DNA from: a virus | IMG/VR virus record: IMGVR_UViG_3300029813_000554 | Location: 1-31,102 of that record | Strand: one strand, 5' to 3' | Length of the DNA: 31,102 bases | Shown here: in pieces, positions 335 through 18,703 of the stretch | Layout of the letters: each line of letters opens with the position of its first letter | Numbering within the stretch: the stretch's first letter is position 1 | Notes under the pieces: generated by a model | What the model was told of the DNA's origin: nothing | Databases searched by the model: none | Seen by the model: the letters and a program-made list of their open reading frames with translations, nothing else | Program-made: the position numbers and the translations under genes

Positions 335-781
335 CTATTTATTACCCCCTGAAAGCAGGTTGATCAGGCGCTGCTTATCCTTAAGCTGTGCGTCTTTGCC
401 CCTTATTACCTCCCGGAGAGCCTCTATGATCCTTTCTTTTTCTGCAAGGTTGATATTATGATATTTTTCTTGCTTATTCTTGACTAAATCAACCTGTTCG
501 TTTTGAGAGTATTTAGGATTTTTAGGCAGATTATTTTTAATTAGGTGTGTATTTAGGGAGACATTTAGGGAGACATTTAGGGAGACATTTTCATCAAAAA
601 AGAAATTATATGAAATGTTATATTTTCTTGCAATAGAATTTATGACCTCAATGGTTGGTTTAAATTTATCAAGTTCAATTTGCGAGATGACACCCCTGGT
701 TACACCAACAGCATTAGCAAACTCTTTTTGACTTAATTCAAAATAATTACGCAACTCCTTAAACTTCAGACTATATTTCAT
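335..781 (-). CDS. XRE-family phage repressor (Mu c-like)
   Basis: From the internal Met at 781 the protein is 148 aa. Residues about 3-60 form an XRE/Cro-C1 helix-turn-helix (LSQKEFANAVGVTRGVISQIE is the HTH core, followed by the usual PTIEVINSIARKYNI helix pair). A linker with three NVSL tetrapeptides and a charged C-terminal helix (about 110-148), probably for oligomerisation, follow. I prefer 781 to the upstream ATG at 811 because HTH proteins of this family begin just before the first helix and the upstream codons overlap the operator-like repeats. It is transcribed away from the early genes at the left end, the position of the Mu repressor, so it probably maintains lysogeny by binding the 782-853 region. 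There is no peptidase domain, so induction is not by LexA-like self-cleavage. Confidence 0.82.
   Translation of the reverse strand: MKYSLKFKELRNYFELSQKEFANAVGVTRGVISQIELDKFKPTIEVINSIARKYNISYNFFFDENVSLNVSLNVSLNTHLIKNNLPKNPKYSQNEQVDLVKNKQEKYHNINLAEKERIIEALREVIRGKDAQLKDKQRLINLLSGGNK
551..590 (-). repeat. 12-bp tandem repeat (x3 plus 4 bases) inside the repressor gene
   Basis: The unit ATTTAGGGAGAC occurs at 551-562, 563-574 and 575-586 and is followed by a partial ATTT. It encodes NVSL three times in the linker between the DNA-binding domain and the C-terminal helix. The unit is a multiple of three, so changes in copy number keep the frame. Confidence 0.9.
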
Positions 782-853
782 TATGCAATATTTTAATGCA
801 AAAAAATGCAATAAATTCTTGCATTGTTATATATTGTTGCTATATTTGCAATT
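782..853. promoter_or_regulatory. Repressor/early operator region with TGCAA-type repeats
   Basis: Between the divergent repressor and Ner-like genes, TGCAA/TTGCA cores recur at about 784, 797, 807, 819 and 847. The clearest element is a perfect inverted repeat AATGCAA-N7-TTGCATT at 805-825, whose right arm contains the TTG of the early promoter -33 box. The spacing and position suit operators for the XRE repressor or the Ner-like protein. Which protein binds is inference. Confidence 0.6.
819..848 (+). promoter_or_regulatory. Early promoter (Bacteroidota -33/-7 type)
   Basis: TTG at 819-821 is followed after exactly 19 nt by TATATTTG at 841-848. This fits the Bacteroidota primary sigma consensus TTG-N19-21-TAnnTTTG. 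It points at the Ner-like gene starting at 881, and the -33 element lies inside the inverted repeat 805-825, so a bound repressor would block it. Confidence 0.72.
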
Positions 854-1958: not shown

Positions 1959-4034
1959 ATGAAATTCATAGATAACACGTTGTATATTGAGTTTAAAGAA
2001 CTGGTTTCTGTGGGTATTTCAGGGGCTGCAATTAGAAAGGCAAAAAACAGAAACAGTTCCTCCTGGTCCTTCCTGCAGGATCCCGACGACCACCGAAAAG
2101 TGCTTATCGAATATGAAAAGCTAAAGTCAAAATACAAGAAGCTGGTAATCGATAAGCTGTGTGGCGGTCTTAAGCCTAATGAATATTTCAGCACACAGGC
2201 AATAAACCGGCATCTTGTAATTAAGCAGGGAGACATGGAATTCATTCAAAGCGAGACGGGCTTGCGTAAGGATACGCGAGCGAAAGCCGTCGAAGCATGT
2301 AAATACTTATATCTGCTTGAGCGGCTCAATACGGCAACACTAAAAAAGAAAGCTTTCCCGAAATGGACGGTAGATGAGTTCTGGGATAACCTGATCGCTC
2401 ACATTAAAGCAAACAAGACATTGAATAAAGGTGGCAAAGCGGGCATTAATCTATCGTCAAACCGGATCCGGCTAACCAATTTTGCAAAAAAATACTCACA
2501 AGACGGTCCATCGGTGCTCATCAGCCGGCGGATGAATAATAAAAACAGCTCAAAACTTGGAAAAACTATTGAAAACGGCAAACTAAGCGTATACTCAAAA
2601 GACCTGTTTACACAGCAAATGTCTCTCCTTCTTGAATTAAGAGCCAACCTGAACAATTTCGATTACGTTCAGATAACAAAAAAATACAACCTGGTTGCAC
2701 GCGATTTGAGATACCCGGAATTAACATCGAGACAGGTTGAAAGCATACTTTTCACCGGTGAACACAACCGGATCACATCCCCGGGGAGGTATGGTGCAGC
2801 ATATTATTATAATACACAAAGCATACAGGCAAAGCGCCGGCGACCGGTAATGCCCCTGCAGTATGTTACGGTAGATGGCTGGGAGGTTGAGCTTTTCTAC
2901 CAGGAAAGGGTTTATGACAGTCGTGGCAATTCAAAAATGTTATATGACCGCCGGCTAAAGGTTGTTATAATCCTCGACACCTTCAATAATTACCCTCTTG
3001 GGTATGCTATCGATGACCAGGAGAGCGCTATCCTTATTAAACAGGCTATGAAAAATGCGGTTGATCATGTTCACAAACTTACAGGCAGGTATTATATTCC
3101 TTACCAGATACAAAGCGACCATTTTGCTTATTCCGAAATGAAATCATTCTATGAGATGATGAGTCATGTCTTCACGCCTGCCCGCGTGGGTAATGCAAAA
3201 AGCAAGGTGATCGAGCCATATTTCAGGCATATAAACAAAACATATTGTCAGATGCTATATAACTGGAGCGGCTTCGGCATCACATCCAGGCGTGAGAACC
3301 AGCCAAACCGGTCCTTAAAGGATAAAATCAAGAAAAGCTTCCCTGACCGCCCGGGAGTTATCAGGCAGATTGAGAAAATCATAACAAGCGAAAGACAGGA
3401 AAGGATAGATAATTACATGCCCGCGCTTGAAAAAGCTAATAAAATGACATTGACCGATGAAAATTATCTGCGATATCTTGGTATCCAGCATAGCCGCACT
3501 GCAAAGCTTACCGGCAGGGGTTTCATGATCACGATCGGGGGCGTAAAAATGACTTACGATTCTTTCGACCGGGATTTTCGCAACCAGGATCACCGGAGCT
3601 GGCAGGCTTATTATGATCTGATGAATCTTAGTAAAATATTGGTTGAAGCGGATGATGGCAAATACCGGTTCATCCTGGATGAAAAATATGAGCAGCCGAT
3701 GGCGCTGAATGAACAAACGGCAGAGGACCGCCGCGAGCTTAAAAAGATAAAAGATTATAACAAGGCAGATGAGCAGGCTATAGCCGAAGCACGGGCTGAA
3801 AACATAAGGATCCTTGAAGATATGTTTTATGATCATCCGGAACTCGAGGATATACGTAAACTTACAATGTTCACACAGGACGGACAGCAGAAGAAACTGC
3901 TTCAGGAGGCAAAGGGCATCAAGGCGCTAAAGCCGCCTAAACGAAAAATTAAAGAAGAAGAGGAGGAGAGCATAGAGGAAAAGCATATGAAATACCTGGA
4001 CAGAAAAAATATTGATATGACAAAATATCTATAA
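1959..4034 (+). CDS. A: MuA-family DDE transposase
   Basis: This 691-aa protein cuts the phage ends and joins them to target DNA. The N-terminal part (about 1-260) carries DNA-binding helical regions. The RNase H-like integrase core shows a DDE triad: D306 in YVTVDGW, D387 in QIQSDHF and E419 in KVIEPYF, with a 31-residue D-E spacing. The region after about 500 matches the non-specific DNA-binding beta-barrel of MuA (GGVKMTYDSFDRDF). The C-terminal tail (about 600-691) is Lys/Glu-rich and should carry contacts to the B ATPase. Size is close to MuA (663 aa). It is followed by a hairpin and then the B gene. The terminal repeats are its probable binding sites. Confidence 0.95.
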   Translation: MKFIDNTLYIEFKELVSVGISGAAIRKAKNRNSSSWSFLQDPDDHRKVLIEYEKLKSKYKKLVIDKLCGGLKPNEYFSTQAINRHLVIKQGDMEFIQSETGLRKDTRAKAVEACKYLYLLERLNTATLKKKAFPKWTVDEFWDNLIAHIKANKTLNKGGKAGINLSSNRIRLTNFAKKYSQDGPSVLISRRMNNKNSSKLGKTIENGKLSVYSKDLFTQQMSLLLELRANLNNFDYVQITKKYNLVARDLRYPELTSRQVESILFTGEHNRITSPGRYGAAYYYNTQSIQAKRRRPVMPLQYVTVDGWEVELFYQERVYDSRGNSKMLYDRRLKVVIILDTFNNYPLGYAIDDQESAILIKQAMKNAVDHVHKLTGRYYIPYQIQSDHFAYSEMKSFYEMMSHVFTPARVGNAKSKVIEPYFRHINKTYCQMLYNWSGFGITSRRENQPNRSLKDKIKKSFPDRPGVIRQIEKIITSERQERIDNYMPALEKANKMTLTDENYLRYLGIQHSRTAKLTGRGFMITIGGVKMTYDSFDRDFRNQDHRSWQAYYDLMNLSKILVEADDGKYRFILDEKYEQPMALNEQTAEDRRELKKIKDYNKADEQAIAEARAENIRILEDMFYDHPELEDIRKLTMFTQDGQQKKLLQEAKGIKALKPPKRKIKEEEEESIEEKHMKYLDRKNIDMTKYL

Positions 4035-4098: not shown

Positions 4099-5022
4099 AT
4101 GAAATTAAATTTAGAAACAAAAACATTAATCAGCGACGCTATAAGAACATATAGCGAAGCAAAAGGCGTTTCATTGAACGAAATTGCCCGCAGGTCAGGT
4201 ATTAACCAGGCAAATATTTCGATGATCGTGAACAGAAAAGGCGATGTAAAGGATCACTGGTATTACATTATTGCTGAATTTATAGGTTATGCGATAAAAA
4301 AGTCATACTGGCAAACGGTTGAGACTGCACAATTCAAGTCAATAATCGCACATTGTGACGATGCCAGGCGAGATGGCAAAAACCGGATATTGGTAGGTGA
4401 GACCGGTAGCGGGAAAACCTATACCGTCGATCGCTATATACAGGCTAATCCCGGCAATACATTCAAGATAAGGGTAAGTGCGGCGCATCAGCTTAAGGAT
4501 ATTATACATGAATTGATGACCGGCATGGGACTGGATGCAGTCGGCAGGCGTGTTACAAAAATCAATAACATAGCCAGGCGGTTTCAGTATTACCAGCTTC
4601 AGAATCTTGAGCCGCTGTTGATCGTAGACGAGGCTGAAAATCTGCGCCTGAATATGTATAGCATGATAAAAGCGATATACGATCAGCTTAACGGAATTTG
4701 CCCGGTTGTGCTGCTGGGAACACAGCAGATCATTACACAGATTGACAGACTGAGAAACAATAACAAAATAGGTATGCCGCAATTTTATCGCAGGTTTAAA
4801 GCCGGTATCAGGGAGCTGCCTGTTATAGACAGGACCTATAAACAGTTTCTGGATGGTATTATCGATAATGAGCTTAAGAAATATCTCCGGATGCTTTGTG
4901 ATAATTACGGCGAGCTTAACGATTATCTTGAATTTGCCCTGATGGAAGCCGACCGTCAGGGTCAGGATCTGACCATGGGCTTGTTTCGCGAAATATATAA
5001 TATAAATAAGGTAGCGGTATGA
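4099..5022 (+). CDS. B: MuB-like AAA+ ATPase, target-capture/transposition activator
   Basis: This 307-aa protein (MuB is 312 aa) has an N-terminal helix-turn-helix (about 22-45, LNEIARRSGINQANISMIV). Next come Walker A GETGSGKT (G100-T107) and Walker B LLIVDEAEN (D177, E178). A TQQI sensor-1-like segment follows, then a C-terminal helical domain. MuB-family proteins form ATP-dependent filaments on DNA, choose targets and stimulate A. The stop overlaps the next start (ATGA at 5019), indicating coupling to the downstream accessory genes. Confidence 0.93.
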   Translation: MKLNLETKTLISDAIRTYSEAKGVSLNEIARRSGINQANISMIVNRKGDVKDHWYYIIAEFIGYAIKKSYWQTVETAQFKSIIAHCDDARRDGKNRILVGETGSGKTYTVDRYIQANPGNTFKIRVSAAHQLKDIIHELMTGMGLDAVGRRVTKINNIARRFQYYQLQNLEPLLIVDEAENLRLNMYSMIKAIYDQLNGICPVVLLGTQQIITQIDRLRNNNKIGMPQFYRRFKAGIRELPVIDRTYKQFLDGIIDNELKKYLRMLCDNYGELNDYLEFALMEADRQGQDLTMGLFREIYNINKVAV

Positions 5023-7369: not shown

Positions 7370-7406
7370 GATCATCAGGAGGCTCACTAACCCGCTTTGG
7401 AACAAG

Positions 7407-7425
7407 CCCGGGATCGTCCCCCGGG
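7407..7425 (+). promoter_or_regulatory. GC-rich hairpin in the gap before the NDT-like gene
   Basis: CCCGGG at 7407-7412 pairs with CCCGGG at 7420-7425 across a 7-nt loop within the only sizeable gap (7370-7447) of this gene run. No T-run follows, so it is not a standard terminator. It lies 22 bp before the start of a gene of clearly lower GC and could mark an insertion joint or mRNA processing point. Confidence 0.4.
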
Positions 7426-7447
7426 GTGGGTTCAAATTTATTAATTA

Positions 7448-7883: not shown

Positions 7884-8525
7884 ATGAAATTAAAGATTTA
7901 TGACAGATCGAGCCAGGCGCTTAAATGGAATAAAATTGATTCGGATAAATTCAGGAGTCTGTATCCCGATATTTCGAATAAGGAATTAGCTAACCTGTTC
8001 GGAGTATCCGAATCTTCTATAATGAACTGGGCCACAAAACTCGGTATTAAAAAGTCGCAGGAATATATGAGCAGGGGCCCGGGACAATTCAGAAAGGGGC
8101 ATCAGCCATGGAATAGGGATATAAAAGGGATTCACTTAAGTCGCGAAACTGAATTTAAACCGGGACACATACCGGCAAACACAAAGTATAACGGTTGCAT
8201 TAGCCTTCGCATCAGAAAGAGAAGAGATGGAAAATATTATTTCATAAGGTTAGATAAAATGATCTGGATACTGTATCACAGGTATTTGTGGGAAAAATAT
8301 TACGGACCTATTCCGGAAGGCAGGATTGTGGTTTTCAAAGACAGAGATACATTAAATGTATGCCTGGAAAATCTTGAATTAATTACCAAGAAGGAGAATA
8401 TGGATAGAAACCGTAATTATGAAAAGTCGTCCCGGAAAATGAAAGAAACCTGGAAAATTGAAAGGTTACGGGTTAAATACGGATTACAACAACAAACAAA
8501 ATTAAGGGTAAATAATTGCTACTGA
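7884..8525 (+). CDS. HNH endonuclease with N-terminal HTH
   Basis: The protein is 213 aa. Residues about 17-55 (SNKELANLFGVSESSIMNW) form a helix-turn-helix. The middle contains GQFRKGHQPWNRDIKGI, the segment usually preceding HNH_3-type nuclease domains. The C-terminal nuclease-like part shows LYHRYLWEKYYGPIPEG, VVFKDRDTLN and ENLELITKKENM. The first H and the N of the HNH core are visible. The usual His before the metal-binding turn is Phe (VFKD), a variant often seen in Bacteroidota phage members. It may be a homing-type or genome-processing nuclease. The HTH suggests sequence-specific binding. Confidence 0.82.
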   Translation: MKLKIYDRSSQALKWNKIDSDKFRSLYPDISNKELANLFGVSESSIMNWATKLGIKKSQEYMSRGPGQFRKGHQPWNRDIKGIHLSRETEFKPGHIPANTKYNGCISLRIRKRRDGKYYFIRLDKMIWILYHRYLWEKYYGPIPEGRIVVFKDRDTLNVCLENLELITKKENMDRNRNYEKSSRKMKETWKIERLRVKYGLQQQTKLRVNNCY

Positions 8526-10978: not shown

Positions 10979-11422
10979 ATGAAAAAAACAATCATTTTAT
11001 TATTAGGAATTGTATTGACATTAAATGTCAATGCGCAATGGTATTTTAATTCATTTGGAGTTACAAATATCAATGAACTTAATGAAGCTCAATTAAATTT
11101 TGCTTTAGAAAAATCAACTAAAACAGTTGAAACAGGACAAACATTAACCTTTGTTGGTTCAGGAGCAGCAATTTTAGGTTATATTATATATGCTGCTTCT
11201 TTGAATAAAATAATTACGGATGATTACGGAAATGTATCAGAAAATGTTAATAAATCCTTTGCAGGAGCAGCCATAATGTATGGTGGTATTATAACGGTAG
11301 GGATAGGTATTCCTTTATGGATTAGCGGGACAAATCGAAGGAATGATATTGAAATTGCCTTGAAAAAGTATGATTCTGCTTATTTAAATGGAATAGGAGT
11401 AGGATTAAAATTCGCCTTTTAA
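10979..11422 (+). CDS. Exported/membrane protein, candidate lysogenic-conversion gene
   Basis: This 147-aa protein begins with a typical signal peptide: KKT, hydrophobic core to residue 17, likely cleavage after NVNA at about residue 20 before QWYF. Two further hydrophobic segments follow (about 55-75 and 93-113), so the mature product probably sits in the envelope. The gene is AT-rich, flanked by its own promoter upstream and by the structured RNA promoter downstream, and has no obvious virion or replication role. That is the profile of a phage cargo gene (moron). Possible roles include surface change or exclusion of other phages, neither shown. Confidence 0.65.
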   Translation: MKKTIILLLGIVLTLNVNAQWYFNSFGVTNINELNEAQLNFALEKSTKTVETGQTLTFVGSGAAILGYIIYAASLNKIITDDYGNVSENVNKSFAGAAIMYGGIITVGIGIPLWISGTNRRNDIEIALKKYDSAYLNGIGVGLKFAF

Positions 11423-11452
11423 TTCCTTCATGGACATACTTTATGAACAAAT

Positions 11453-11483
11453 TTGTTTTAAAGTAATTTATTTATTACATTTG
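11453..11483 (+). promoter_or_regulatory. Strong Bacteroidota promoter driving the structured leader RNA
   Basis: TTG at 11453-11455 is followed after 20 nt by TACATTTG at 11476-11483, matching TTG-N19-21-TAnnTTTG. Transcription should begin at about 11488-11492, which is exactly where the first arm of the structured RNA begins (11489). Confidence 0.75.
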
Positions 11484-11488
11484 CTCTC

Positions 11489-11616
11489 GAATGCATTAGA
11501 TACGAGAGTATCTTAGTTAATTATTTTTATTAATAAGAGGCCCGAAGGGTGCAAGCGGAAGGGAACAACCGCTGTCCTGATCTCGTATCAGTGCATTCAC
11601 ACCCCACCCGGGCCTC
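11489..11616 (+). ncRNA. Structured leader or small RNA with pseudoknot potential
   Basis: Stem P1 is GAATGCA (11489-11495) with TGCATTC (11592-11598), continued by GATACGAGA (11499-11507) with TCTCGTATC (11581-11589): 16 bp with a small internal loop. Inside is a hairpin AGCGG (11554-11558)/CCGCT (11569-11573). GAGGCCCG (11537-11544) pairs perfectly with CGGGCCTC (11609-11616), supported by GGGTG (11547-11551)/CACCC (11600-11604). This second pairing crosses P1, so it is either a pseudoknot or a mutually exclusive alternative fold. The region is GC-rich inside AT-rich DNA, has no ORF, starts at the predicted transcription start, and ends 18 nt before the BRO-N gene. It may be a regulatory leader of that gene or a free-standing RNA. 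Confidence 0.7.
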
Positions 11617-11634
11617 GCTGTAATTTATTGAGAC

Positions 11635-12306
11635 ATGAATGCATCAAAAGAAAAAGCCGGCAGATTACTGCCCGCCGTGTTCAGCTACGGCGAAAATCAA
11701 ATGCTGAGAGCCATAATGATTGATGATCAGCCATGGATGGTTGCAAAGGATATCTGCGACAATCTTGGTCTTACTCATTCAAAAGATATTGTAAGAAATC
11801 GTTTGGATGAAGACGAAAAGCTAAAGCGACAAATAGTCGCCTTTGGTCGTACCCAGAGCCGACTTGTTTGGTTTGTAAACGAAAGCGGGTTTTACAACCT
11901 TGTCTTTCACAGCCATAAACCTGAAGCAAAAGCCTTTCGTAAATGGGTAACCAGCGAGGTGCTGCCGCAGATAAGACAGACAGGCGCTTTCACGGCTGAC
12001 CGGGATTCCGGAATTAAAAACATGCAGGAGCTGGCAGATAAAGCTGCAGGTATCGCCGGCAGTTATAATAAGCTTGGCGCATACCTTGGCATGTCAGCTG
12101 CTTATTTCACTTTCCTGCATAACGATCCGCAAAGCTTAACCCCTGAGAGAGCCAGGCGCATGAGGGAGGGTTGTCTGCGTATTATAAAAAAAGGGATTAG
12201 CACTAGCGCACCGGATCACAGAACCACCGGGCTATTGATGCAGGTAGAAGATAAGGATTTGCGTATTGCCTTGTGGAAAAAGTTTAAGAAAGGCGGACTG
12301 GTATGA
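11635..12306 (+). CDS. BRO-N domain antirepressor-like protein
   Basis: This 223-aa protein has a BRO-N/Bro DNA-binding domain at about 25-117: MIDDQPWMVAKDICDNLGL, FVNESGFYNLVFHSHKPEAK and FRKWVTSEVLPQIRQTG. The C-terminal half (about 125-223) contains a helical region with AYLGMSAAYFTFLHNDP, which may be a second HTH-like or oligomerisation domain. BRO-N proteins in phages commonly act as antirepressors or transcription modulators. Here it sits under its own promoter and structured leader, away from the repressor, and overlaps the following gene by 4 bp. It may signal induction or tune late genes; the role is inferred. Confidence 0.82.
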   Translation: MNASKEKAGRLLPAVFSYGENQMLRAIMIDDQPWMVAKDICDNLGLTHSKDIVRNRLDEDEKLKRQIVAFGRTQSRLVWFVNESGFYNLVFHSHKPEAKAFRKWVTSEVLPQIRQTGAFTADRDSGIKNMQELADKAAGIAGSYNKLGAYLGMSAAYFTFLHNDPQSLTPERARRMREGCLRIIKKGISTSAPDHRTTGLLMQVEDKDLRIALWKKFKKGGLV

Positions 12307-12527
12307 AGCGGCTTAGTAACGAATCTAAGGGTAAAGTTTGCCACCTGGTGGAGGAGCAGATATTTGCCTGCTCCGATCCGTGCGACTTTGCCGAAACCCT
12401 CGACGACCTGTTTTTTTGTTATGCCAGGTACGAATTAACCTCAGGCATCGAGCAGGAATATGCCGAAACGGTTATTTACCACGTGGAAGTGCTCAAGCGC
12501 TTTTTTAAAGCGCTGCAGGTACTCTGA
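12303..12527 (+). CDS. Hypothetical protein (74 aa) coupled to BRO-N gene
   Basis: It overlaps the BRO-N stop by 4 bp (ATGA) and ends at the start of the bidirectional terminator. The product is acidic and helical (HLVEEQIFACSDPCDFAETL, VIYHVEVLKRFFKALQ), without membrane segments. Coupled translation suggests a partner of the BRO-N protein. Unrecognised family. Confidence 0.65.
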   Translation: MKRLSNESKGKVCHLVEEQIFACSDPCDFAETLDDLFFCYARYELTSGIEQEYAETVIYHVEVLKRFFKALQVL

Positions 12528-12563
12528 AAAAAAGCCCCGCTGGAATATGGCGGGGCTTTTTTT
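12527..12563. terminator. Bidirectional intrinsic terminator between convergent blocks
   Basis: AAAAAAA-GCCCCGC (12534-12540), a 9-nt loop, then GCGGGGC (12550-12556)-TTTTTTT. The stem is perfect with an A-run and a T-run on opposite sides, so it works for both strands. It separates the rightward early/BRO operon from the leftward structural block, whose last stop codon lies at 12562-12564. Confidence 0.92.
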
Positions 12564-18627: not shown

Positions 18628-18703
18628 AAAAAAAAGTTACATGATAGGCCTAAAAAGGGTCCTAAAACAGGTCCCTATACCACCTGTCATGTAACTTTTT
18701 TTT
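18628..18703. terminator. Large symmetric hairpin in the divergent control region
   Basis: Eight A residues plus GTTACATGATAGG (18628-18648) pair with CCTGTCATGTAAC plus eight T residues (18683-18703): a 21-bp stem with a single G-T wobble. Inside the loop, AGGG-t-CCT (18656-18663) pairs with AGG-t-CCCT, giving a second nested stem. Because of the A8/T8 symmetry it would be an intrinsic terminator on either strand. It lies between two divergent start codons, not at the end of a gene, so it may block antisense transcripts, act as an attenuator, or act as DNA structure. Confidence 0.75.

Follow-up and report, generated by a model that had tools for sequence, protein, structure and literature searches.

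The DNA analysed here, a stretch of 31,102 nt referred to below as the window, is an IMG/VR virus record whose gene content is that of a Mu-like phage, with genes for a MuA-type transposase, a MuB-like ATPase and a repressor-like protein (Table 1). The early genes run rightward and the late genes converge on them. A gap between the last AT-rich early gene, which ends at 11422, and a BRO-N gene, which starts at 11635, holds the element described below, and the ORF list contains no reading frame of at least 60 aa within this gap on either strand. The dormancy of a temperate phage is under the control of antirepressors, and the product of the BRO-N gene would probably release this phage from dormancy. 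The short ORF that overlaps the BRO gene by 4 nt, in the same operon, found no family in a Pfam or PHROG scan. Judging from its sequence, the inverted repeat that follows is a probable bidirectional terminator of the BRO unit.

Elsewhere in the window, a free-standing HNH endonuclease gene lies in the early region (7884-8525; Pfam HNH_3, 4e-15), and a GC-rich, partly tRNA-like patch at 7380-7445 (CCGCTTTGGAACAAGCCCGGGATCGTCCCCCGGGGTGGGTTCAAAT), within a doubtful ORF, gave no tRNA or Rfam match. A long inverted repeat at 18629-18703 (AAAAAAGTTACATGATAGG ... CCTGTCATGTAACTTTTTT), which encloses a GGGTCC/GGTCCC-type hairpin between two divergent late operons, is perhaps a shared late regulatory site.

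Table 1. Positions, strands and basis of the features of the window
Feature	Position	Strand	Basis or remark
HTH repressor-like gene	335-811	-	
MuA-type transposase gene	1959-4034		weak match to rve domain
AAA ATPase gene resembling MuB	4099-5022		
Predicted Bacteroidota-type promoter	11452-11483	+	-33 TTTG 11452-11455; 20-nt spacer; -7 box TACATTTG 11476-11483
Possible 5' hairpin, A1 in loop	11484-11508	+	fold; CTCTCG (11484-11489) / CGAGAG (11503-11508)
A1 (a1b1), GAATGCATTAGATACGAGA, complementary to A'	11489-11507	+	sequence; element-specific match
c4-like core, 80 nt	11537-11616	+	MFE -34.6 kcal/mol; z -3.1 vs dinucleotide shuffles
Closing stem of core	11537-11544/11609-11616	+	8 bp
Inner helix of core	11547-11551/11600-11604	+	5 bp, GGGTG/CACCC
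Hairpin P2, AGCGG ... CCGCT	11554-11573	+	MFE; resembles P2 of c4-2, GCGGTATTGGAAACAACCGC
Hairpin P3, CTGAT-CTCGT-ATCAG, b' in and around loop	11577-11591	+	MFE
A' (b' + a'), TCTCGTATCAGTGCATTC, antisense to A1	11581-11598	+	sequence
a', TGCATTCA, complementary to a2	11592-11599	+	unpaired in c4 fold; 8-nt perfect match
BRO-N antirepressor-like gene, 223 aa, proposed target	11635-12306	+	Pfam Bro-N 6e-23; PHROG anti-repressor Ant 4.8e-37
a2 target, TGAATGCA, from TG of BRO start codon	11636-11643	+	complementary to a'
74-aa ORF	12303-12527	+	ORF list
14-bp inverted repeat with A and T runs	12527-12563		100% complementary; between converging early and late operons

Fold of the element and its pairing segments

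A preliminary description of this DNA had reported a near-perfect Bacteroidota promoter ahead of two crossing stems. Read from the sequence, the promoter pattern TTTG-N20-TACATTTG is perfect, and a pattern scan allowing spacers of 19-21 nt found the full pattern three times in the window versus 0.68 expected. The transcript start had been placed on the first base of the first stem; the promoter does lead into this segment, A1, but the sequence allows a range of starts from 11484 to 11489. Whether the possible 5' hairpin is wholly transcribed depends on the exact start. Hairpins of 3-8 bp are present at this place in 20 elements, the window among them, with a mean length of 4.95 bp versus 3.82 bp in shuffled sequences (P about 1e-4).

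Direct reading of the sequence confirmed both stems and their crossing. The first joins A1 to A' by 16 pairs with one bulge, and the second joins 11537-11551 to 11600-11616 through 8 bp (GAGGCCCG/CGGGCCTC) and the 5 bp of the inner helix; because the second stem crosses the first, the topology is that of a pseudoknot. The internal hairpin of the earlier account corresponds to P2, and the 128-nt patch does fold better than chance (z = -4.3 versus dinucleotide shuffles). When the core was folded alone, one structure dominated, with 42% of the ensemble, and the MFE and centroid agreed on its order: closing stem, internal loop, inner helix, P2, P3 and an unpaired TGCATTCA. The segment b' complements CGAGA of A1 and occupies the same position in P3 as does b' in the c4 RNA of phage P1. 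No U-run follows the closing stem in the window.

Inclusion of A1 in the folding led to formation of a competing A1-A' helix, the duplex being calculated at -26.3 kcal/mol. Over 11484-11670, two exclusive folds were calculated at -50.2 and -50.1 kcal/mol, in keeping with the competing or pseudoknotted folds previously proposed. Because the A1-A' helix and the core fold exclude one another and are equally stable by calculation, they would make a switch. Among relatives of the element, the energy difference between the two folds varies widely and scatters round balance (mean -1.0, SD 5.2 kcal/mol).

A third, partial copy of A1, absent from the preliminary description, was found at the BRO start codon. 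This segment, a2, contains 8 nt complementary to a' (calculated duplex energy -11.7 kcal/mol), and a match as good as that between ATGAATGCA and TGCATTCA was found in 1.4% of the 631 ATG contexts of the window. An MNA start (ATGAATGCA) is also present in relatives L026 and L038, where a' differs; part of the a2 match in the window could, therefore, stem from the protein sequence. A search of the target for a counterpart of b' (b2) found none, leaving the 8 nt of a2 as the only target piece seen.

Relatives in Bacteroidota phages and prophages

Searches of phages, plasmids and viral contigs revealed no close homologues of the window at the DNA level, and one-sequence protein scans with BRO and the transposase yielded no close homologues. 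An alignment of three MuA proteins led to 78 Mu-like viral loci, and in three of these, BRO genes are preceded by RNAs of unrelated sequence that share one order: A1, closing stem, hairpin, A', closing stem and ATG. A DNA pattern derived from a short core conserved in two of these three recovered one family, type I, and BRO gene scans of species genomes and viral contigs gave many more relatives, including window-like elements, type II. Altogether, the layout is common to about 40 divergent relatives in Bacteroidota phages and prophages, with A1 directly preceded by the same -7 box as in the window.

The proteins encoded downstream of the relatives contain BRO-N, KilA-N or AntA domains; one is ORF6N-like, below the Pfam cut-off yet with matches to anti-repressor PHROGs, and the gene downstream of L112 matched no family. 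Part of the set was found through the BRO search and is biased accordingly. However, in six loci (L024, L038, L094, L101, L106 and L132), which came from the MuA search or the RNA pattern, the genes served are other than BRO, so that the antirepressor link is independent of the search.

Type I is a conserved RNA of 170-190 nt ahead of antirepressor genes, with the core TAACCCCGTN8TTGTAATG, a hairpin (GGGCTTTTTTTATGCCC) and a terminal U-run. It occurs at L020 (7258-7476), L076 (9497-9726), L094, L101, L102, L106, L112, L132, L139, L140, L142, L153, L157, L168, L170, L180, L186, L190 and L207. Rfam 15 detected no type I RNA in the loci scanned, and the family deserves an entry of its own. A U-run 3' of the closing stem is found in all type I elements and in about half of type II.

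In both types, A' complements A1 as well as an A2 segment that adjoins or spans the start codon of the downstream gene. When partners were permuted, the match of A' to its own A1 and to its own A2 was reached in 0 of 20,000 permutations each, in type I and likewise in type II, where a misplaced box in L026 lowered the observed sum and makes the test conservative. The a2 register seen in the window recurs in 9 of 12 family members; in type II, the last two bases of a' are typically CA and its pairing sets in at the TG of ATG, as with ATGACTGTCA (L024), ATGCGAACCAAC (L154), ATGCAGACCC (L158), ATGAGTTTCAA (L174) and ATGCAAACA (L197).

The preliminary description had named covariation and conservation of the stems as a check. 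Run on the relatives, this check showed strong covariation and a recurring layout, although the structures were written by hand on alignments of related sequences and the figures are to be read as support, not as probabilities. For the core shared by type II and the Rfam family c4-2 (17 sequences, window left out), 90.6% of cells are paired versus 55% in shuffled alignments, the covariation score is 0.862 versus 0.222 +/- 0.029, and changes on both sides are seen in 18 of 19 pairs (13 of the 14 closing and inner pairs). Type I, with the A1/A' helix included (19 sequences), scored 0.505 versus 0.185 +/- 0.013; its conserved A1/A' block has changes on both sides in all five pairs with 100% of cells paired, while a second, poorly aligned block reaches 38% only. 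The covariation is a result on the wider family of divergent relatives, a set that contains no near neighbours of the window copy.

Detection of the window element by models was negative. Neither Rfam c4 (RF01695; at the gathering score or up to E 10) nor c4-2 nor c4-a1b1 matched within the window. A covariance model built without the window, R1, aligned 11537-11616 at 8.4 bits (E 4.3, not significant), and a second, R2, trained on c4-2 together with type II relatives and likewise excluding the window, did not list it. Because of these results, class membership of the element rests on its anatomy; it was rejected as a member of RF02944 and is called c4-like.

A descriptor consisting of the box and geometry only, which was written after the window had been seen, so that the shuffle test below is optimistic, gave one match in the window, with the BRO start as its target. 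In the fetched loci, it matched at 54 places, a number that includes mutual copies; most of the places lie directly upstream of antirepressor genes. Among 3000 windows shuffled by a first-order Markov model, none reached the combined score for box, 5' hairpin, A1/A', closing stem and start-codon match. At the loosest thresholds, 47 of the 3000 contained a match, none of which equals the A1/A' and closing-stem scores or the start-codon match of the window. Together with the layout repeated before antirepressors in dozens of loci, these counts leave an origin by chance, as unrelated inverted repeats within a GC-rich patch, as the least probable reading of all, even with the window not significant in Rfam or leave-one-out models.

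Several other candidates were rejected: weak Rfam matches in the window (mir-2068, CRISPR-DR36) as chance; tRNA and tmRNA, none being present in the window; an invertible segment or a site of recombination, the arm having no other copy within three mismatches; a retron, no reverse transcriptase lying beside the element; and a terminator of the upstream gene, the GC stem being followed by no U-run.

Side observations were made at individual loci. In L155 (4016-4107) and L091 (468-553), a c4-2-like core (E 1e-4 and 1e-3, respectively) lies apart from the other element that the locus contains. In L197, from Flavobacterium soyangense, Rfam RT-17 (122-226; 40.6 bits, barely over the cut-off) lies directly 5' of the c4-like element, with an RT-14 match there below the cut-off.

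Proposed control of the antirepressor

The best explanation, to which a probability of about 0.83 is assigned, is that 11484-11643 constitutes a module of the c4 type, through whose antisense RNA a Mu-like phage of Bacteroidota controls its BRO-N antirepressor gene. It builds on features delivered by the computation itself: the parts, their order and fold, the element-specific complementarity of A1, A' and a2, the covariation within the family and the association with antirepressors. The earlier suggestion of a switch or small regulatory RNA before an antirepressor-like gene is, thus, supported by homologues that share the layout and covary strongly. That description had also recognized no known riboswitch class, and no Rfam riboswitch matches within the window; it had left unnamed, however, a known kind, the phage c4 antisense RNA.

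In the proposed mechanism, transcription from the single promoter would yield an RNA with A1 first, the 80-nt core next and the antirepressor mRNA last. The core would be released either through processing or because a shorter transcript terminates. Its a' (UGCAUUCA), exposed between P3 and the closing stem, with b' held within P3, would pair, acting in cis or trans, with UGAAUGCA at the BRO start codon. As read from the sequence, the RNA most likely blocks antirepressor translation through this pairing, and the prophage would stay repressed and confer immunity. In the long transcript, A1 would take up A' over 16 pairs; because this helix would disrupt P3 and run across the closing stem, A1 should disarm the core, and BRO would be made.

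A purely cis-acting leader, in which exclusive folds at the 5' end of the BRO mRNA control translation or transcription of BRO in the same molecule and no RNA acts in trans, is judged unlikely and is the foremost of the alternatives. It would account for the two states of equal calculated stability, for the predicted placement of the element and BRO on the same strand and transcript, and for the overlap of the a2 match with the start codon, and a separate short RNA is not obvious where the closing stem lacks a U-run. However, in size and fold the core resembles c4, which in P1 is a processed, trans-acting RNA (PMC5320573), and the U-runs of all type I and about half of type II elements suggest that a separate short RNA is made.

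Exclusive folds and a pseudoknot ahead of a gene might also be expected of a riboswitch or protein-binding leader, with a ligand choosing between the folds. This is very improbable: a ligand pocket would be conserved, whereas the variable part of the element is exactly the segment that matches its own A1 and a2, and the riboswitch families of Rfam found nothing in the window. Operators at the DNA level have a slightly smaller chance still. According to this view, A1, the inverted A' and the start-codon copy bind a phage repressor, with the folds arising only incidentally, which would suit the three GAATGCA copies round the promoter and start codon and the HTH repressor-like gene of the phage. 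However, in relatives the repeat differs from element to element while pairing is kept; the closing stem, inner helix and P2 covary at the RNA level; and the 1-nt bulge alters the spacing of the copies, which a helix can tolerate but an operator cannot.

If the c4-type reading is extended to the family, Bacteroidota, which are major gut and marine bacteria, may carry in their phages and prophages widespread, mostly unrecognized c4-like immunity RNAs that are bistable, a single transcript having A1 at its extreme 5' end and the start-codon target competing with A1 for the antisense segment; this generalization is tentative, its odds being put at somewhat below even. Were it true, each set of A1, A' and a2 would define an immunity group of its own across BRO, KilA-N, AntA and ORF6N antirepressors; a function would also be found for the orphan c4-2 RNA. 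With the same logic before four antirepressor domain types in Bacteroidota, RNA-based phage immunity would be far commoner, and a role is suggested for the Rfam family c4-2. The target rule, by which a' has CA at its end and its pairing begins with the UG of the start codon, is testable, and the predicted immunity code implies that lysogens with the same a' should exclude one another's antirepressor expression.

Comparison with known antisense systems

Antisense-RNA control of an antirepressor is known in detail from phages P1 and P7. A GGW motif has been reported at the RNase P sites of c4; it is absent from the expected place in the window, where the core begins AAGAGGCCC and the closing stem GAGG. 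The c4 RNA has three stem-loops, is processed by RNase P and acts on its target mRNA through its a' and b' loops (PMC5320573), repressing Ant synthesis in trans (PMC8546580). The annotated P1 record gives the order promoter P1c4, a1, b1, the 77-nt c4 RNA, a2, b2, icd and ant. The window shares with P1/P7 c4 (RF01695) the succession of promoter, a1b1, core, a2 and antirepressor on one strand, with a1 and b1 annotated in P1 where the window has A1, and its core, 80 nt versus 77 nt, has the predicted fold of P1 c4: b' sits in the loop of P3, a' is unpaired, and the closing stem and P2 are likewise present. Over 11452-12306, the element lies directly upstream of the antirepressor gene on the same strand, with no gene between and a shared predicted promoter; a1b1 is present with its 16 pairs, and the a2 match at the start codon spans 8 nt (p 0.014). 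The window differs in that A1 lies at or near the transcript start, versus about 30 nt in for P1; in that a2 starts within the antirepressor start codon, whereas a2 of P1/P7 lies ahead of icd; in that neither b2 nor icd is seen; and in the host phylum, Bacteroidota, a 2010 survey having listed c4 RNA from Proteobacteria and phages only (PMC2864571).

The c4-2 family (RF02944, c4 clan CL00128), reportedly introduced in a 2017 motif paper, is likewise found in Bacteroidota, and has a core with an inner helix of the GGTG/CACC type and a GAAA-capped P2; at its loci, A1 comes right after a TAnnTTTG box and A2 lies beside the ATG. The window has this anatomy of closing stem, internal loop, GGTG/CACC-type helix and P2 (11537-11573, 11600-11616), and the same helix order is found in 17 relatives. 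One relative, the type II element L162, scores above the RF02944 cut-off (43.9 bits versus 41), with matches below it at the expected place in L174 and L197. Above the cut-off, c4-2 occurs in 9 of 395 sampled Bacteroidota genomes. In loci L239-L269, Rfam c4-2 RNAs lie between copies of A1 and A2, at up to six copies per genome. The copies inspected precede mostly short ORFs of about 77-95 aa, which may be c4-2 targets, whereas the window element precedes BRO-N; one such ORF that was scanned (MSTNTFSKETELRLTEFFNN...) matched no Pfam family.

Type I shares with the window the order A1, closing stem, hairpin, A', closing stem, A2 and antirepressor, and the pseudoknot of A1/A' with the closing stem. 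It differs in its length of about 170-190 nt, an extra 5' stem (P0), a GGGC-T7-ATGCCC hairpin, the conserved core and U-run, and an A2 that lies ahead of the ATG, where a2 of the window lies over it. Phage P22 provides another antisense RNA that holds an antirepressor gene off, Sar, which has its own promoter on the opposite strand; in contrast, the RNA of the window is encoded upstream of its target, on the same strand and with a shared promoter. A literature search, with most subscription journals outside its coverage, found no description of c4-like modules in Bacteroidota. The kind of element is already known from c4; its clear extension to Mu-like phages and prophages of Bacteroidota, before several antirepressor families, is new, as are the type I family, the start-codon register of a2 and the placement of A1 where the transcript starts.
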